Positions 142 to 13,916 of a stretch of 13,916 bases of DNA are shown here, piece by piece. The DNA comes from Clostridia bacterium (GTDB lineage: Bacteria; Bacillota_A; Clostridia; Oscillospirales; CAG-272). Positions within the stretch are counted from its first letter, which is position 1. Each line of letters starts with the position of its first letter. The notes beneath the pieces were generated by a model. That model did no database searches. It was given only the letters and a program-made list of their open reading frames with translations, and had not been told where the DNA came from. The translations under genes and the position numbers were made by a program. The stretch is taken from the NCBI GenBank assembly GCA_017408625.1, contig JAFQUG010000292.1, positions 1 to 13,916 on the forward strand. Direction: 5' to 3'.

Positions 142-236
142 AAAGACTTCTGCTTTCGTTTTTCCCGCATATTTCTCAGCCCCATAGGCGTGACCCTTTT
201 CCATGCATATAGGGTAACGACATTTGCCAATACTTA

Positions 237-258
237 TGCTATAATGCGAGCAAAGGAG
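237..258 (+). promoter_or_regulatory. Extended -10 promoter and RBS of the recombinase gene
   Basis: A perfect TATAAT at 240-245 is preceded by TGC at 237-239, giving an extended -10 (TGNTATAAT). No good -35 lies 16-18 nt upstream, which is tolerated for extended -10 promoters. The start point would be near 252, leaving a leader of only about 15 nt. This leader includes the AAGGAG ribosome binding site (253-258), 8 nt before ATG 267. A small interrupted palindrome (ACCCT 193-197, AGGGT 211-215) lies just upstream and could be an operator, but that is only a possibility. Confidence 0.6.
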
Positions 259-266
259 ATGGTAAG

Positions 267-1106
267 ATGTTGAAGCTGACGGATGAATTATGCGATGCGT
301 TTGAAAAGGAATTGAGAGAGCAGGAGAGAGCCCTTGCAACCGTAGAAAAGTATATGCGTGACCTGCGTGCGTTCGGTGCATACGTGGGAGAGGGTGAGAT
401 CACAAAGCAGGTCGTGCTTGATTACAAGGCATACTTGCAGAAAAGATACGCCACAGCAAGCGTAAACAGCACGCTGTCCTCGCTGGGGGCTTTTTTTGCA
501 TTTTGTGAGCGACGCGACCTGTGTGTCAAGCGTATCAAGCAGCAAAAAAACATATTTGCAGCAAAGGAAATAGAGCTTTCGCGTGCGGAATACGAGCGTC
601 TTTTGAACGCTGCGCTGGAGAAAGGAAACAGACGATTGTATCTGCTCATGCAGACGGTATGCGCGTGCGGCATCCGCGTGTCCGAGCTGCAATTTATCAA
701 TGTTGAGGCGGTTAAGTGCGGATATGCGGATATTGCTTGTAAGGGCAAGCGCAGAAGGGTATATTTGCCCGGCGAACTGTGCCGTCAGTTGCGCGGTTAT
801 CTGAAGGAGCGGGGGATCACCGCGGGCGCGGTATTCGTGACAAGAAGCGGCAAACCGCTTGACCGCTCGAATATCTGGTCAGACATGAAAAAGCTGTGCC
901 AGGCGGCGCGGGTGAGTGAGGAAAAGGTCTTTCCGCATAACCTTCGCCATCTTTTCGCGCGCACGTATTATTCTATCCACAAGGACATCGTGCGCCTTGC
1001 GGACATTCTCGGTCACTCAGCCATTGACACCACGCGCATCTATACCATGGAAAGCGGTGACGTCCACCGAAAGCAGATCAACCGCCTTGGACTTGTGCGA
1101 TGTTAG
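267..1106 (+). CDS. Xer-like tyrosine site-specific recombinase, probable DNA invertase
   Basis: This 279-residue protein belongs to the tyrosine recombinase (phage integrase) family. Residues ~5-90 form the SAM-like core-binding domain (YMRDLRAFGAYV, then TASVNSTLSSLGAFF). Residues ~100-275 form the catalytic domain. The catalytic set is complete: R137 in CGIRVSEL, a beta-hairpin lysine within K159-K161, H224 and R227 in HNLRH, H250 in LGHS, and nucleophile Y259 in TTRIYTM. The length matches single-polypeptide XerC/XerD-like enzymes, without the arm-binding domain of large phage integrases. Twenty-one bases after its stop lies the first of two inverted 24-bp sites that bracket a promoter. 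I therefore infer that it inverts that segment, in the way small tyrosine recombinases control phase-variable promoters in gut bacteria. It is not the housekeeping XerC or XerD on any evidence visible here. Family membership is near certain; the inversion role is inferred from context. Confidence 0.93.
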   Translation: MLKLTDELCDAFEKELREQERALATVEKYMRDLRAFGAYVGEGEITKQVVLDYKAYLQKRYATASVNSTLSSLGAFFAFCERRDLCVKRIKQQKNIFAAKEIELSRAEYERLLNAALEKGNRRLYLLMQTVCACGIRVSELQFINVEAVKCGYADIACKGKRRRVYLPGELCRQLRGYLKERGITAGAVFVTRSGKPLDRSNIWSDMKKLCQAARVSEEKVFPHNLRHLFARTYYSIHKDIVRLADILGHSAIDTTRIYTMESGDVHRKQINRLGLVRC

Positions 1107-1127
1107 CCCAGAATTAAGATAAAAAAC

Positions 1128-1151
1128 ACCACATAATTCGCATTATGTGGT
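1128..1151 (+). repeat. Left recombination site of the invertible segment (dif-like 24-bp site)
   Basis: The site is a 10-bp arm ACCACATAAT, the 4-bp centre TCGC, and the reverse-complement arm ATTATGTGGT. It is the exact reverse complement of the site at 1348-1371 over all 24 bp. Read with a 6-bp crossover region it is CATAA-TTCGCA-TTATG inside longer symmetric arms, the core geometry of Xer/dif sites. The arms could each bind one recombinase monomer. The non-palindromic centre sets the polarity, so the two sites are in inverted orientation and recombination would invert rather than delete the DNA between them. Confidence 0.88.
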
Positions 1152-1174
1152 AGAAATATTTGATTACATAACCT

Positions 1175-1203
1175 ATTATACGCTTAAAACATGAATTTGT
1201 CAA
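1175..1203 (-). promoter_or_regulatory. Perfect sigma-A consensus promoter inside the invertible segment
   Basis: On the minus strand the -35 is TTGACA (1203 to 1198), the spacer is exactly 17 nt (1197-1181) and the -10 is TATAAT (1180 to 1175). All twelve hexamer bases match consensus. The DNA upstream of the -35 is AT-rich, including TATTTTTACTTTCTAATA, resembling an UP element. The start point should be near 1168, reading left through the left recombination site into the antisense strand of the recombinase gene. After inversion the same promoter would drive the lipoprotein gene. Confidence 0.9.
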
Positions 1204-1254
1204 TATTAGAAAGTAAAAATACGCTAATATGAGAGCAAATATGCGCAACAAACC

Positions 1255-1296
1255 GACCAATGAAAGATGTTTTTTTCAAAATCCTTTTCATTGGTC
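1255..1296. other. Hairpin within the invertible segment, possible insulating terminator
   Basis: GACCAATGAAA (1255-1265) and TTTCATTGGTC (1286-1296) form a perfect 11-bp stem around a 20-nt loop, followed on the plus strand by CTTTTC. A second, weaker stem (AAACC 1311-1315, GGTTT 1323-1327) is followed by ATTTTTTAT. Both lie behind the promoter in either orientation. They could stop read-through from the recombinase gene into the lipoprotein gene when the switch is OFF. The long stem is AT-rich with a large loop, so terminator function is uncertain. Confidence 0.4.
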
Positions 1297-1347
1297 CTTT
1301 TCTGCGCTCAAAACCGGCAGAGGGTTTATTTTTTATCCGGCAAGTTC

Positions 1348-1371
1348 ACCACATAATGCGAATTATGTGGT
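1348..1371 (-). repeat. Right recombination site of the invertible segment
   Basis: ACCACATAAT-GCGA-ATTATGTGGT is a perfect 24-bp reverse complement of the left site at 1128-1151. With a 6-bp crossover region the centre reads TGCGAA. The plus-strand flanks of both sites also share an extra C on the left and AGA on the right. The site ends 21 nt before the lipoprotein start codon and just before its AGGAG, so it would be transcribed as part of the 5' leader in the ON orientation. Confidence 0.88.
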
Positions 1372-1392
1372 AGATAGAAAAGGAGAAAGACT

Positions 1393-2541
1393 ATGAAAAA
1401 AGGCTTATGCTTATTGATGGTTTGCCTGCTCATGATGACAACGGTATTCGTATCGTGTGATCAGGGAGAAGGGCAGGGCGAAACGAAAGAATCAACTACG
1501 ACTGAGGCAGACGTTTCAGATGAGACCGAATCGCAAACCACTGCCCCCGGCACGAGCGAAAAGGGCACGAGTGCACCGGGAACAACCGAGCCCGGTACGA
1601 CCGAGCAGGGAACAACTACGCCGGAAACGAGCGACACAGATGCGAGCGAACCTGGTACAAGTGATTCCGGTACAGATACCCCTGCGCCCGTTTATTCCGA
1701 AGGCTTATTGTTTGAATCTAATGGAGATGGAACTTGTGCTGTTACAGGCATAGGAGTGTGTGTAGACGAAGGAATCGTTATTCCACCAACTTCTCCGGAT
1801 GGGGATAGCGTGACAAGCATTGGTTTTGGAGCATTTTCTCATTGCACCGGGGTGACGAGCATTACTATTCCGGACGGTGTAACCAGTATTGATGGTAATG
1901 CATTTTGGGACTGCCCGGATTTGGCGAATATCACAATTCCGGATAGTGTGGCATGCATTGGAAGATGTGCATTTGACAGTTGCCCCGAATTGGAATATAA
2001 CATATATGAAGATGGTAAATATCTCGGAAATGAGAACAATCCATATGCCATTTTTGTTGGTACGAAAGGCAGTGTGCCAGCTGTATATATAATGCATGAG
2101 AACACAAAATATATTTCTTACAATGCATTCTACAACTGTACACGCTTGAAAAGTATCGAGATTCCGAGTGGCGTTGTTAGTATAGGCAGCAGTGCATTTG
2201 CAGGTTGTACAAACTTGGTCAGTATTACTATTCCGAGTAGTGTTACAAATATTGATTCGTATGCGCTTTCAAACTGTATAGGATTGACAAGCATCACTAT
2301 TCCGAAGGGTATGACAAGCATAGATAGTAGTGCGTTCTATAATTGTATAAAACTGACGAGTATTGCAATTCCGGATAGTGTAAAGAACATTGGACATAGT
2401 GTGTTCTCCGGCTGTACCGAATTGAAAGACGTTTACTTCACTGGTACAGAGCAAGAATGGGCGGCTATTGAAATTGATGCATACAAAAACGAGATCCTTA
2501 CCGCCGTCACTATCCACTACAACTATGTTCCCGAAGAATAA
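1393..2541 (+). CDS. Phase-variable surface lipoprotein with BspA-type leucine-rich repeats
   Basis: The 382-residue protein starts with a lipoprotein-type signal: Lys-Lys, a hydrophobic run, then FVSC with the probable lipidated Cys22. The -3 residue is Phe, which is not the commonest choice. Residues ~25-100 are a Thr/Ser/Pro/Glu-rich linker with repeated PGT-type units, likely spanning the cell wall. From about V140 there are roughly eight repeats of ~23 residues on the pattern (V/T)TSIxxxAFxxCxxLTSITIP, the BspA-type LRR_5 family (PF13306). The third is enlarged by an insertion. The C-terminal FTGTEQEWAAIEI ending is common in clostridial members. Such proteins are surface-exposed and some mediate adhesion or host-protein binding; the ligand here is unknown. 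AGGAG at 1381-1385, 7 nt before the ATG, supports the start. Expression is predicted to depend on the invertible promoter upstream. Confidence 0.88.
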   Translation: MKKGLCLLMVCLLMMTTVFVSCDQGEGQGETKESTTTEADVSDETESQTTAPGTSEKGTSAPGTTEPGTTEQGTTTPETSDTDASEPGTSDSGTDTPAPVYSEGLLFESNGDGTCAVTGIGVCVDEGIVIPPTSPDGDSVTSIGFGAFSHCTGVTSITIPDGVTSIDGNAFWDCPDLANITIPDSVACIGRCAFDSCPELEYNIYEDGKYLGNENNPYAIFVGTKGSVPAVYIMHENTKYISYNAFYNCTRLKSIEIPSGVVSIGSSAFAGCTNLVSITIPSSVTNIDSYALSNCIGLTSITIPKGMTSIDSSAFYNCIKLTSIAIPDSVKNIGHSVFSGCTELKDVYFTGTEQEWAAIEIDAYKNEILTAVTIHYNYVPEE

Positions 2542-10151: not shown

Positions 10152-11036
10152 ATGATCGGGCTTGAGCATGGAAAAGTAAAGCTTGTGGAGCATGATCCTC
10201 GTTGGTTTGCGCTGGCAGATGAGCACATCAGGAAGATCAAAAATGCTCTGGGCGAGATTGCAATTGATATTGCGCACGTGGGAAGTACGTCTGTTCCCGG
10301 ACTGTGTGCGAAACCCATTATTGATATCGTCGTTGGCGTTCGAAATTTTCATGACTCCATCATAAGAGGCTTGGAGCAAGCAGGATATTTGTACAGGCCT
10401 GCGCATGAGAGTCAGACACATATGCTTTTCATAGATGCTGATGGAGAAATCAGACGTGCGCACATACACGTTGTTCAGCACATGAGTATGGAGTGGCGGA
10501 ACTATCTGAATTTCAGAGATTACCTAAAAGCGTTTCCGCAAGTCAAACGTACATATCGAGATCTGAAAAACACTCTCGCAGTGAAATATCCGAATGACAG
10601 GGAACAGTACACGCTGAAAAAGGCAGAATTTATTACCTATACGTTGCGCAAAGCGATGGTCTGGTCGTTTCTCGGACATTATGTGTGCGCACAGGTAGAC
10701 AGACCTGCCGGATATCTGCACCGTAAGGGTCAAAAGGAATTACTGTATCCCATTAACTATGGTTTTATCCCCGGTGTATTGGGCGGTGACGGTGAGGAGC
10801 TGGACGTATATTATCTTGGTACAGACAAACCACTTAACTCATTTTCCGGTAGAGTGATCGCAATCGTACACAGAAAAGATGACAGCGAAGACAAGCTTGT
10901 GGTTGCTGCGGACGATTATCAGTATACAGCTGAACAAATTTGTCGGGAAATCTATTTTCAAGAGAAATATTATGATACGACGGTTGAATTGATCAACGGA
11001 CAAAAATTGCACATCAGTAACGGAGTAACAAAATGA
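10152..11036 (+). CDS. Fusion of a GrpB/UPF0157 nucleotidyltransferase-like domain with an inorganic pyrophosphatase-like domain
   Basis: The 294-residue protein has two parts. Residues 1-~168 are a GrpB (UPF0157) domain of the polymerase-beta nucleotidyltransferase superfamily: HVGSTSVPG (42-50), AKPIIDIVVGV (53-63), then HIHVV and NYLNFRDYL. Residues ~169-294 resemble soluble inorganic pyrophosphatase: YPINYGFIPGVLGGDGEELD (199-218) matches the family signature, with Glu where the central Asp is usual. RKDDSEDKLVV (241-251) matches the second acidic/Lys site. Small stand-alone proteins like the second half occur in Firmicutes. Met169 at the junction has no ribosome binding site, so the fusion looks real. 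A nucleotidyl transfer would release PPi, which the second domain could hydrolyse, but the substrate is unknown. The gene overlaps mntP by 4 bp. Confidence 0.85.
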   Translation: MIGLEHGKVKLVEHDPRWFALADEHIRKIKNALGEIAIDIAHVGSTSVPGLCAKPIIDIVVGVRNFHDSIIRGLEQAGYLYRPAHESQTHMLFIDADGEIRRAHIHVVQHMSMEWRNYLNFRDYLKAFPQVKRTYRDLKNTLAVKYPNDREQYTLKKAEFITYTLRKAMVWSFLGHYVCAQVDRPAGYLHRKGQKELLYPINYGFIPGVLGGDGEELDVYYLGTDKPLNSFSGRVIAIVHRKDDSEDKLVVAADDYQYTAEQICREIYFQEKYYDTTVELINGQKLHISNGVTK

Positions 11037-11708: not shown

Positions 11709-13916
11709 TTATTGTGTTACGCGGAACGTACGTGCTTCTCCGTCATCCATTTGGAAGGAGAATGCGTACGAATACGTACCGTCATCCTCACGGAAGACCA
11801 TGTAGCCGTCGTAGCTGTGGTGCTGATAGTTGTAATCTACCCAAGCCCCATTCTCCATAACCTGAATGGTGGGCTGAGTATAGCTGTCAAAGCCGTAAAC
11901 ACGAACGGCATAAACAGCAGAGCCACCACCACTTACGGTGAATTCGGTAACGTTCTGATCGGCAATCACCGTGGGAAGGTAAGTATCCTCAATGACACTG
12001 CCGACAGAGGATTCAACCTTGATCGTAGAGAGAACCGAATCCTCTCTGACGCCAAGCACGTTGGAGTCGTCCTTGCTTTCGGGAGATCCCCAAGGCAAGA
12101 GGACCATATCGATATGTACGGTATCGCCTGCACGAAGCGTGATATCACCTGCATCCACGGTTAGGGTTGCAAGGTTGACCGTTCCGTCAAACTGTTCCTT
12201 CAAAACGAGATTGCCGTCATAAGGCTTACCGCCGAGAATCATGCTGTAATCCTTGATAACGACAGCCATGTTGACCGAATCCGTACCCTTATGGGAAGGA
12301 TCAGAGTCGATGTAGTAATCAAAATACGCACCATCTTTACCGAGTTTGTAGTAATCGGTATGCTCGCTGAGCTTCAGGTCAACCGTTTGCGGCTGATTGT
12401 TTTGGTCAAGGTAGCCAAGCTTCTTATAAACGATCGCGCGTCCGTCCATGGAGAAGAACGAGAAATTGTTGACAAAATCCTTGATCTCAAGATCCTCAAG
12501 CACAGTCAGATCCAGCGTGTAGTAGGTTCTGGTTTCGTCGGACTGCGCCATCTCCACCTGTCTGTAATCGACTTGGATCTTACCGTCATCGGAAAGATAC
12601 GACATATCAATATCCACGTAAACAGGGCCGGAAGACGAAATATTTGCGGTTTGTGATTCGGAGCCATAGAAGTTTCCTTGCGCATCGGTGTATTGCAGCC
12701 AGTACAATCTGCCCGCGCTGGTGTGCTGAGGCTGTCCAGGCCACAGAGGAGCGGACATGGCACGGAAGTCCGGAAGTGTCCAGTAGTCCTTTCCGTAAAC
12801 GTAATAGGGGGCGATGCAGTTGGATTCGGTTACTCCGCAGGAAAGGTGATAATAAGGTGCAATAAACTGAATAGAGGACAGCTGCTTGAGCGGGAAGTTC
12901 CCCCAGTTCTGGTACAGGTTGATCGACTTGAACTGTTTTGTCTGGTTCTTGGAGACTATGATGGGGAATATCGAATAGCCGTAGTGCATATCCTCGGGAT
13001 CAAACAAAGGTTCTTCGTATTCGCCCTTGAAGTTCTTGCAGACCTCTACGTTGATGGGCAGCAGTCTGTCAGCTTCGTCAAGTACCACACCGCACTCAAG
13101 GCATCCCGTATTGTTGGTGTGCGCAAAGATATAAATCTCACGGTCATAATCGTCTCCGACGATCTGCGAATCAACAATATAATGCTTTTGAGGTTCTTCA
13201 TAATAAGGCTTATTGAAGTCGGTGCCGTCCAGCGTGTATGTGTAACAGCCGACAAGACTGTTGTAGCCAACATATTTTGCGTTATCGCTCTTGTTGACGA
13301 TCTTGATGTCGGTCAACGGGTTACGTTCAATATAAGCCTGTCTTTCCAGCTCGTCGAACGAGTGTCCCTTGTCGGTGTAGATGCGATGACCGATCGAGTA
13401 GCTATCATGGCTTTTCAGAGTTGTGGTAGCGGGGGTATAGGTCTGCGTGATCACGTAGTAGCCGTCCTCCAAGGTGACAGTCACTTCACCGACGTATTGT
13501 TCCTCGGCAGGGAAAATGTAACCAAACACACCCGCATCGGTTACATCAAAGCCAACGTATTGTACCGAGGCAGCGTCAATGCCGTCAATGGAGGAGTGCT
13601 TACCGTTCTTGTCGGCAATTACAAGCGAAGATACGCGGCTTTGCTCAATGCGGGTAACCATGCCGAATCCTTTCAAGCCGTGAGTGTCACCATCCGCCAC
13701 CACGCGGATTTGCTGATGCATTTTGTCACCGTAAACATGCAGGTTGCGGTCAAGTTTCATGGCGGTCGCTGCAGTTGTGTTGATCTTAACCGCTTTCATT
13801 TCCGTGATCTCGATCTTCTCCCCAACCTTATCGCCACAGTCCACACGGATGGATTCCACCTTGCCCGTGTAATCGGGAATAGAAACGAGAGGAACGATGA
13901 CGGTACAGTATTCTTC
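11709..13916 (-). CDS. Large protein of unknown function, C-terminal 735 residues (5' end beyond window)
   Basis: The frame is open from the right edge (first visible residues EEYCTVIVPLV) to a stop at 11709-11711, so the start codon and any signal peptide lie outside. The GTG at 13857-13859 is in frame but is not a credible start, because coding continues upstream of it. I do not recognise the protein. It is rich in Tyr, Asp, Thr and Val with predicted beta-strand character, and has no obvious membrane helix. Visible marks include GCLECGVVLDE (one CxxC), the aromatic block CIAPYYVYGKDYWTLPDF followed by MSAPLWPGQPQHTSAGRLYW, and a late VHIDMVLLPWGSPES. Composition suggests a secreted or cell-surface protein, possibly carbohydrate-related, but that is a guess. 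It is followed by the mntP terminator on its 3' side. Confidence 0.8.
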   Translation of the reverse strand, partial: EEYCTVIVPLVSIPDYTGKVESIRVDCGDKVGEKIEITEMKAVKINTTAATAMKLDRNLHVYGDKMHQQIRVVADGDTHGLKGFGMVTRIEQSRVSSLVIADKNGKHSSIDGIDAASVQYVGFDVTDAGVFGYIFPAEEQYVGEVTVTLEDGYYVITQTYTPATTTLKSHDSYSIGHRIYTDKGHSFDELERQAYIERNPLTDIKIVNKSDNAKYVGYNSLVGCYTYTLDGTDFNKPYYEEPQKHYIVDSQIVGDDYDREIYIFAHTNNTGCLECGVVLDEADRLLPINVEVCKNFKGEYEEPLFDPEDMHYGYSIFPIIVSKNQTKQFKSINLYQNWGNFPLKQLSSIQFIAPYYHLSCGVTESNCIAPYYVYGKDYWTLPDFRAMSAPLWPGQPQHTSAGRLYWLQYTDAQGNFYGSESQTANISSSGPVYVDIDMSYLSDDGKIQVDYRQVEMAQSDETRTYYTLDLTVLEDLEIKDFVNNFSFFSMDGRAIVYKKLGYLDQNNQPQTVDLKLSEHTDYYKLGKDGAYFDYYIDSDPSHKGTDSVNMAVVIKDYSMILGGKPYDGNLVLKEQFDGTVNLATLTVDAGDITLRAGDTVHIDMVLLPWGSPESKDDSNVLGVREDSVLSTIKVESSVGSVIEDTYLPTVIADQNVTEFTVSGGGSAVYAVRVYGFDSYTQPTIQVMENGAWVDYNYQHHSYDGYMVFREDDGTYSYAFSFQMDDGEARTFRVTQ

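Follow-up and report, generated by a model that had tools for sequence, protein, structure and literature searches.

A probable promoter inverton upstream of a BspA-type LRR lipoprotein gene and the Clostridia recombinase group to which it belongs

The stretch of DNA analyzed here (the window) comprises 13,916 nucleotides from a Clostridia bacterium (contig JAFQUG010000292.1). At its start, immediately 5' of a recombinase gene, lies what we take to be the tail of an IS3-like transposase ORF (positions 1–105, assigned by eye). The following features make up the locus.

217–245, plus strand: candidate recombinase promoter (ACGACA, 17-nt spacer, TATAAT, with TG ahead of the –10 element), scoring 10/12 in a consensus scan and called on sequence likeness alone
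267–1106, plus strand: Xer-like tyrosine recombinase, the proposed invertase (279-aa ORF; PF00589, E = 1.3e-22; PF02899, E = 7e-08)
1117–1152, minus strand: proposed OFF-state terminator, the left-site hairpin followed by T6 (terminator scan; fold –13.5 kcal/mol, z –5.6)
1128–1151, plus strand: left recombination site, ACCACATAAT-TCGC-ATTATGTGGT (repeat search and site-pattern scan)
1203–1175, minus strand: proposed invertible promoter (TTGACA, 17-nt spacer, TATAAT; 12/12 match), aimed at the 3' end of the recombinase gene (OFF)
1255–1296, no strand assigned: internal hairpin, T-rich on both sides (–15.5 kcal/mol), a proposed two-way terminator insulating the cargo gene
1348–1371, minus strand: right recombination site, identical to the left site in inverted orientation (repeat search and site-pattern scan)
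1381–1385, plus strand: ribosome binding site AGGAG, read from the sequence
1393–2541, plus strand: BspA-type LRR protein, the proposed switched gene (382 aa; LRR_5, PF13306, E = 1.9e-54)
2546–2599, no strand assigned: inverted repeat forming a hairpin 3' of the LRR gene, a likely terminator (terminator-like on the plus strand at 2574–2591)

Beyond this hairpin, the minus strand between 2601 and 9984 presumably encodes a histidine biosynthesis cluster that converges on the lipoprotein gene (gene names assigned by eye). Farther downstream, a GrpB domain and a pyrophosphatase-like domain are fused in one reading frame (10152–11036), and a large minus-strand ORF (11709–13916; 735 aa), which has no Pfam match, runs off the window.

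The PF00589 domain and a set of R, K, H, R, H, and Y residues (R137, K159, H224, R227, H250, and Y259) place the recombinase among the tyrosine recombinases. We take these residues to be the catalytic ones, and they show no variation across 16 aligned relatives. The protein falls below all NCBIfam equivalog cut-offs for XerC, XerD, XerH, and XerS, with a best score of 126.3 bits against a cut-off of 220 (XerD, 119.1 against 329.6; XerC, 110.5 against 335).

The two sites, of 24 nt each, are 100% complementary and separated by 196 nt. Scanning with the site pattern at up to three mismatches yielded two matches in the window, both of them the known sites, and none in 200 dinucleotide shuffles. 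Each site is a palindrome in which two 10-bp arms flank an asymmetric 4-bp core (TCGC or GCGA), a structure absent from an earlier, sequence-only reading of this DNA. The 12/12 promoter between the sites is also found in the two nearest relatives (L003 and L004, described below), and weaker promoter-like matches within positions 1–2800 are at chance level (7 observed against 5.5 in shuffles). The right site ends 21 nt from the ATG of the LRR gene, so that there is no space for a promoter outside the segment. The N-terminus of the LRR protein carries a signal with a likely lipobox, VFVSC (both recognized by eye), and this export signal, combined with LRR_5 repeats, identifies a BspA-type LRR surface protein. 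The window therefore contains an outward promoter between inverted repeats 5' of a gene, the arrangement typical of promoter invertons. The sequence-only reading had described a complete tyrosine recombinase of the Xer-like type, a pair of 24-bp sites that are exact inverted copies, a perfect consensus promoter between them that faces away from the lipoprotein gene, and a good ribosome binding site for a gene that lacks its own promoter; all four components are borne out by these results.

We consider it very probable that the window is a promoter inverton governing the LRR lipoprotein gene. This interpretation, also put forward in the sequence-only reading, is supported by the layout of the window, the core-matched sites of its relatives, the occurrence of promoters in both directions, and natural inversions. 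In the proposed mechanism, the recombinase would bind both palindromic sites and swap strands across their identical 4-bp cores, turning round the 244-bp stretch 1128–1371 in this strain. In the OFF state, as assembled, the strong promoter would fire leftward, and the transcript would terminate some 50 nt on, at the left site, which resembles a terminator hairpin because T6 lies beyond it on the minus strand; this intrinsic terminator would stop the RNA before antisense entry into the recombinase gene, and the lipoprotein gene would be silent at present. In the ON state, the inverted promoter would point rightward and yield an mRNA in which a leader of some 60 nt (the right-site hairpin, then AGGAG) precedes the LRR lipoprotein coding sequence. 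The internal hairpin, located upstream of the promoter, would block read-through from the recombinase gene into the lipoprotein gene in both states; taken as the best 56-nt window, it has a z of –1.86.

The recombinase belongs to a large group: 7999 candidates were scored, all at E ≤ 0.001, and the best reached 93% identity among the matches listed. From a scan of genome contigs, the 80 best of 588 related stretches were kept; almost all have titles that denote Clostridia-type MAGs. The nearest among these 80 were L003 (94%) and L004 (90%), which belong to a single sheep-colon MAG; L003 and the window represent the same locus, their switches and following genes aligning. The recombinase was detected at E ≤ 1e-60 in 33 of 97 relatives of this MAG and at E ≤ 1e-85 in 50 of 394 genomes from the order to which the MAG belongs; no recombinase nearer than those of L003 and L004 was found among the 97 relatives and the 394 genomes of G001's order.

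An inverted core-matched pair of the form ACATAAT-nnnn-ATTATGT is present within 800 nt 3' of the recombinase in 86 of 112 distinct loci, the window included, and two site-like matches occurred in 8 of 1217 control stretches from the same loci or contigs. Among the 26 pairless loci, 13 are cut by a contig end within 446 nt, 4 (L002, L076, L119, and L121) carry an inverted repeat of different or degenerate sequence, and 9 have none. The strongest evidence among the site findings is core identity. When pairs were picked blind to the core, all 79 had inversely identical 4-bp cores, 49 of which were distinct, compared with a mean of 2.5 and a maximum of 8 matches after partners were re-dealt. A second set comprised 20 loci, 17 of them with a pair, and the cores matched in 15 of 16 core-blind picks; in the one that did not match, L147, a third site bearing a different core lies next to a matching pair. 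Strand exchange by tyrosine recombinases would enforce such a combination of free core drift and strict identity within a locus.

A role of the core as the address of a locus, with paralogues in one genome having differing cores, was rejected as a general rule because paralogous switches in both G094 and G001 have common cores: TGAT occurs in 6 of 8 readable G094 loci, an identical 24-nt arm is common to 5, and the two closest G001 loci have TCGC in common. Exchange between the five G094 loci with an identical site is therefore conceivable. The G094 genome encodes 11 related recombinases (L122–L132) with variant sites that have ACATTAT arms. In five other loci (L018, L033, L045, L067, and L070), there is an extra direct copy of the left site, 30–55 nt off and with the same core, which could permit deletion or alternative inversion.

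Signs of transcriptional insulation recur across the group. At least six T in the 10 nt outside the left site, on the outward strand, were found in 37 of 86 loci versus 9 outside the right site, and inward T-rich tracts at the two sites in 6 and 7 of 86; the Wilcoxon p of 1e-6 for this asymmetry is a guide only because the loci are related. Judging from these tracts, the left site may often double as the OFF-state terminator. Local hairpins exceeding those of shuffled sequences (z < –2) are present in 57 of 86 segments, a mark that the window's own hairpin, at –1.86, does not attain. Both a clear promoter and a hairpin at least as stable as –12 kcal/mol are present in 51 loci. In 49 of these, the hairpin lies upstream of the promoter, typically 40–80 nt from the –35 element; the two sides of the hairpin average 4.8 and 4.9 T in 10 nt, against a background of 3.5. 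The position alone is modest evidence because a promoter near one end leaves most of the segment upstream.

A promoter score of at least 11.5 was obtained for 47 of the 86 segments, with 0.2 expected from shuffles. The strict promoter call divided the 86 segments into 53 OFF (toward the recombinase), 8 ON (toward the cargo), 2 ambiguous, and 23 below threshold; a looser scoring of 65 loci gave 43 OFF, 13 ON, and 9 unclear, and we prefer the stricter one. Such a strong excess of OFF (53 to 8) is unlike free two-way flipping without selection, and together with the insulated layout, it suggests that leakage is selected against. The fact that 53 of the 61 clearly called promoters aim at the recombinase could also mean that the main job of the OFF-state promoter is to damp recombinase expression, by antisense RNA or collision, the cargo being secondary. 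We find this unlikely: the T-rich tract beyond the left site, seen in the window and in the 37 of 86 loci above, should stop such RNA, and a ribosome-binding site and a gene with a signal peptide come directly after the right site.

Both orientations were observed between relatives within the group. L045 and L052 are colinear in the recombinase (83% identity) and the next, TetR-like gene (73%), whereas the segment aligns at 74% on the opposite strand; the reversal stops at the sites, and neither locus has a clear promoter call. The segment is likewise reversed between L015 (OFF) and L028 (ON), with the promoter call turning along. Altogether, 11 of 45 homologous segment pairs are in opposite orientation. 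On a tree of 61 recombinases, the ON label changes 6 times, at least 5 of these on well-supported branches, and is mildly clustered (15 of 500 shuffles were as low). Contig ends within 210 nt of the recombinase are found downstream in 11 of 80 loci and upstream in 1 of 80, with 0.7 expected from the downstream background, an excess anticipated if both orientations coexist, so that a mixed population enters the assembly; at 420–1000 nt, contig ends are commoner upstream of the recombinase (9 versus 3). Contigs of G094 and G065 break at the same place in 6 of 15 loci fetched.

The locus of the window itself was seen in one orientation, with the window, L003, and L004 all OFF; no relative above 85% identity was found in the ON state, nor was a close ON-state relative detected in viral contigs. 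This shared orientation, along with the OFF excess in the group, would fit a locked or decayed switch that retains inverton anatomy while the segment is fixed in this lineage and the gene stays off. Against this quite improbable scenario, nothing appears decayed: the recombinase is intact with its catalytic residues, the sites are exactly identical, and the promoter matches the consensus at 12 of 12 positions.

Another possibility, which we judge very improbable, is that inversion moves a terminator and that the gene is driven by an outside promoter, for instance, by transcripts that start at the recombinase promoter and read through. The segment does contain an internal hairpin, and cwpV of Clostridioides difficile works in this way (PMC2784873), but the 12/12 promoter lies inside the segment, and inversion should change the hairpin little because it is T-rich on both sides. 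The sequence-only reading had offered cwpV as a comparable switch; the comparison is a loose one because, as described in the available part of the source, cwpV has its promoter external to the invertible DNA, and a terminator is proposed to account for its OFF state (PMC2784873). According to the same text, the two systems have in common their occurrence in Clostridia, a segment of about 200 bp, short inverted repeats (21 bp in cwpV), a tyrosine recombinase, and a surface protein, and they differ in that recV is distant from its switch (PMC2784873). With its promoter inside the segment, the window is not a cwpV-type switch. A mobile origin, with the recombinase and the inverted repeats left over from a small transposon or integrative element, is scarcely credible: the presumed IS3-like tail (1–105, by eye) and the many related recombinase loci found within single genomes (11 in G094) would agree with it, but both repeats are 3' of the recombinase and bracket the promoter rather than the recombinase, as they do in 86 of 112 loci, and there is no match in viral contigs and all plasmid relatives are below 60% identity.

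Returning to the promoter inverton, the spacing of the sites is another regularity of the group. Site-to-site distances range from 147 to 534 bp, mostly 218–284, and show a 10.4-bp period (R 0.60, a value not reached in any of 2000 jittered sets) with a phase near zero, that is, whole helical turns; the 220 bp of the window correspond to 21.05 turns. The period was recovered in 52 loci below 70% recombinase identity (R 0.62; 0/1000 as high) and in loci thinned to below 60% (n = 15; 7 of 1000 nulls as high); the 13 spacings outside 200–310 bp are not significant alone (118/1000). The distance from the stop codon to the left site, intended as an unphased control, gave an R of 0.35 at 9.5 bp (equalled or exceeded in 3 of 1000 nulls), since one short distance is common to many loci; distinct site-to-site distances were therefore tested too, and the period held (R 0.50; 0/1000). 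The second set (17 loci, relatives included), which was not used for finding the period, gave an R of 0.66 at 10.45 bp (Rayleigh p ~7e-4). The distance from the promoter to its outward site has a similar phase (R 0.75 near 10.9 bp; 61 loci).

The cargo was surveyed by Pfam searches with 82 first downstream ORFs, crudely chosen and, if long, trimmed at 700 codons. Among 115 families in all, the survey yielded LRR_5 (6 ORFs), Flg_new repeats (5), collagen (5), TetR (5), signal peptidase (3), cohesin (3), prepilin N_methyl (3), and MCP (2). Surface proteins and regulators predominate by eye, and BspA-type LRR proteins are a recurrent cargo of the switch group. Collagen-like lipoproteins are the cargo of close or related switches in L004, L011, L074, and L102.

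We lean, somewhat, toward a broader proposition, namely that these loci are switch cassettes, self-contained and interchangeable, that make up a large group in Clostridia. Each locus would need only its own two sites with a common 4-bp core, which otherwise drifts; the sites would be whole helical turns apart, with selection for looping visible in the sequence; the promoter, outer site, and internal hairpin would form a two-way insulated unit in which a site doubles as a terminator; and the cargo (LRR, collagen-like, and InlB-like repeats, pilins, TetR, and others) would be freely exchanged. No description of matched free cores, whole-turn spacing, and an insulated promoter as group-wide rules was found in the literature searched; that no study of natural spacings of this helical kind was found there is a weak negative.

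That the system is of a known, ordinary kind, of which the window is a new member, is well supported. Its site and recombinase group is probably the published inverton group 139 together with invertase group 35, a circumstantial match on taxa, layout, and spacing. As reported in the portion of the study available, 32 of the 33 members of inverton group 139 are from Clostridia, and its link to invertase group 35 is the strongest one reported to a recombinase group; its motif was previously unpublished, and read-level flipping was observed in Clostridium sp. D5 and Intestinimonas butyriciproducens (PMC11892184). Drawn from the hCom2 gut community, these invertons are intergenic or gene-near and adjoin a gene for a tyrosine-type recombinase, whose expression would not depend on the inverton promoter; by the coordinates in print, arm starts are 231 and 241 bp apart, similar to the spacings found here (PMC11892184). 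The available text makes no mention, for group 139, of palindromic sites, the core rule, helical spacing, or terminators, which appear once, as future work (PMC11892184). The sequence-only reading knew of no described case in which this site sequence controls a BspA-type protein; as the site and recombinase group is probably in print, this remark needs correction. No inverton with LRR or BspA cargo was found in the openly licensed literature. The fimA/fimS switch of Escherichia coli (FimB/FimE) likewise combines an invertible promoter, short inverted repeats, and an adjoining tyrosine recombinase, as outlined in the part of the source at hand (PMC2784873), but its site sequences and cargo are unrelated, and the window has one recombinase, with no sign of a second. 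In "Ca. Mycoplasma girerdii," BspA-like surface proteins are switched on and off, in the account available, by changes of repeat length within the gene rather than by inversion (PMC5476646).

Whole-turn spacing makes a physical idea testable, namely that in short DNA loops both sites must lie on the same face, through half-turn changes of the spacing. If the interpretation is right, the site motif and the recombinase group would allow phase-variable surface genes to be found and oriented in gut Clostridia from assemblies alone. The BspA-type protein encoded in the window would then vary between cells, and the BspA family has been linked to adhesion, according to the part of the source available (PMC5476646).
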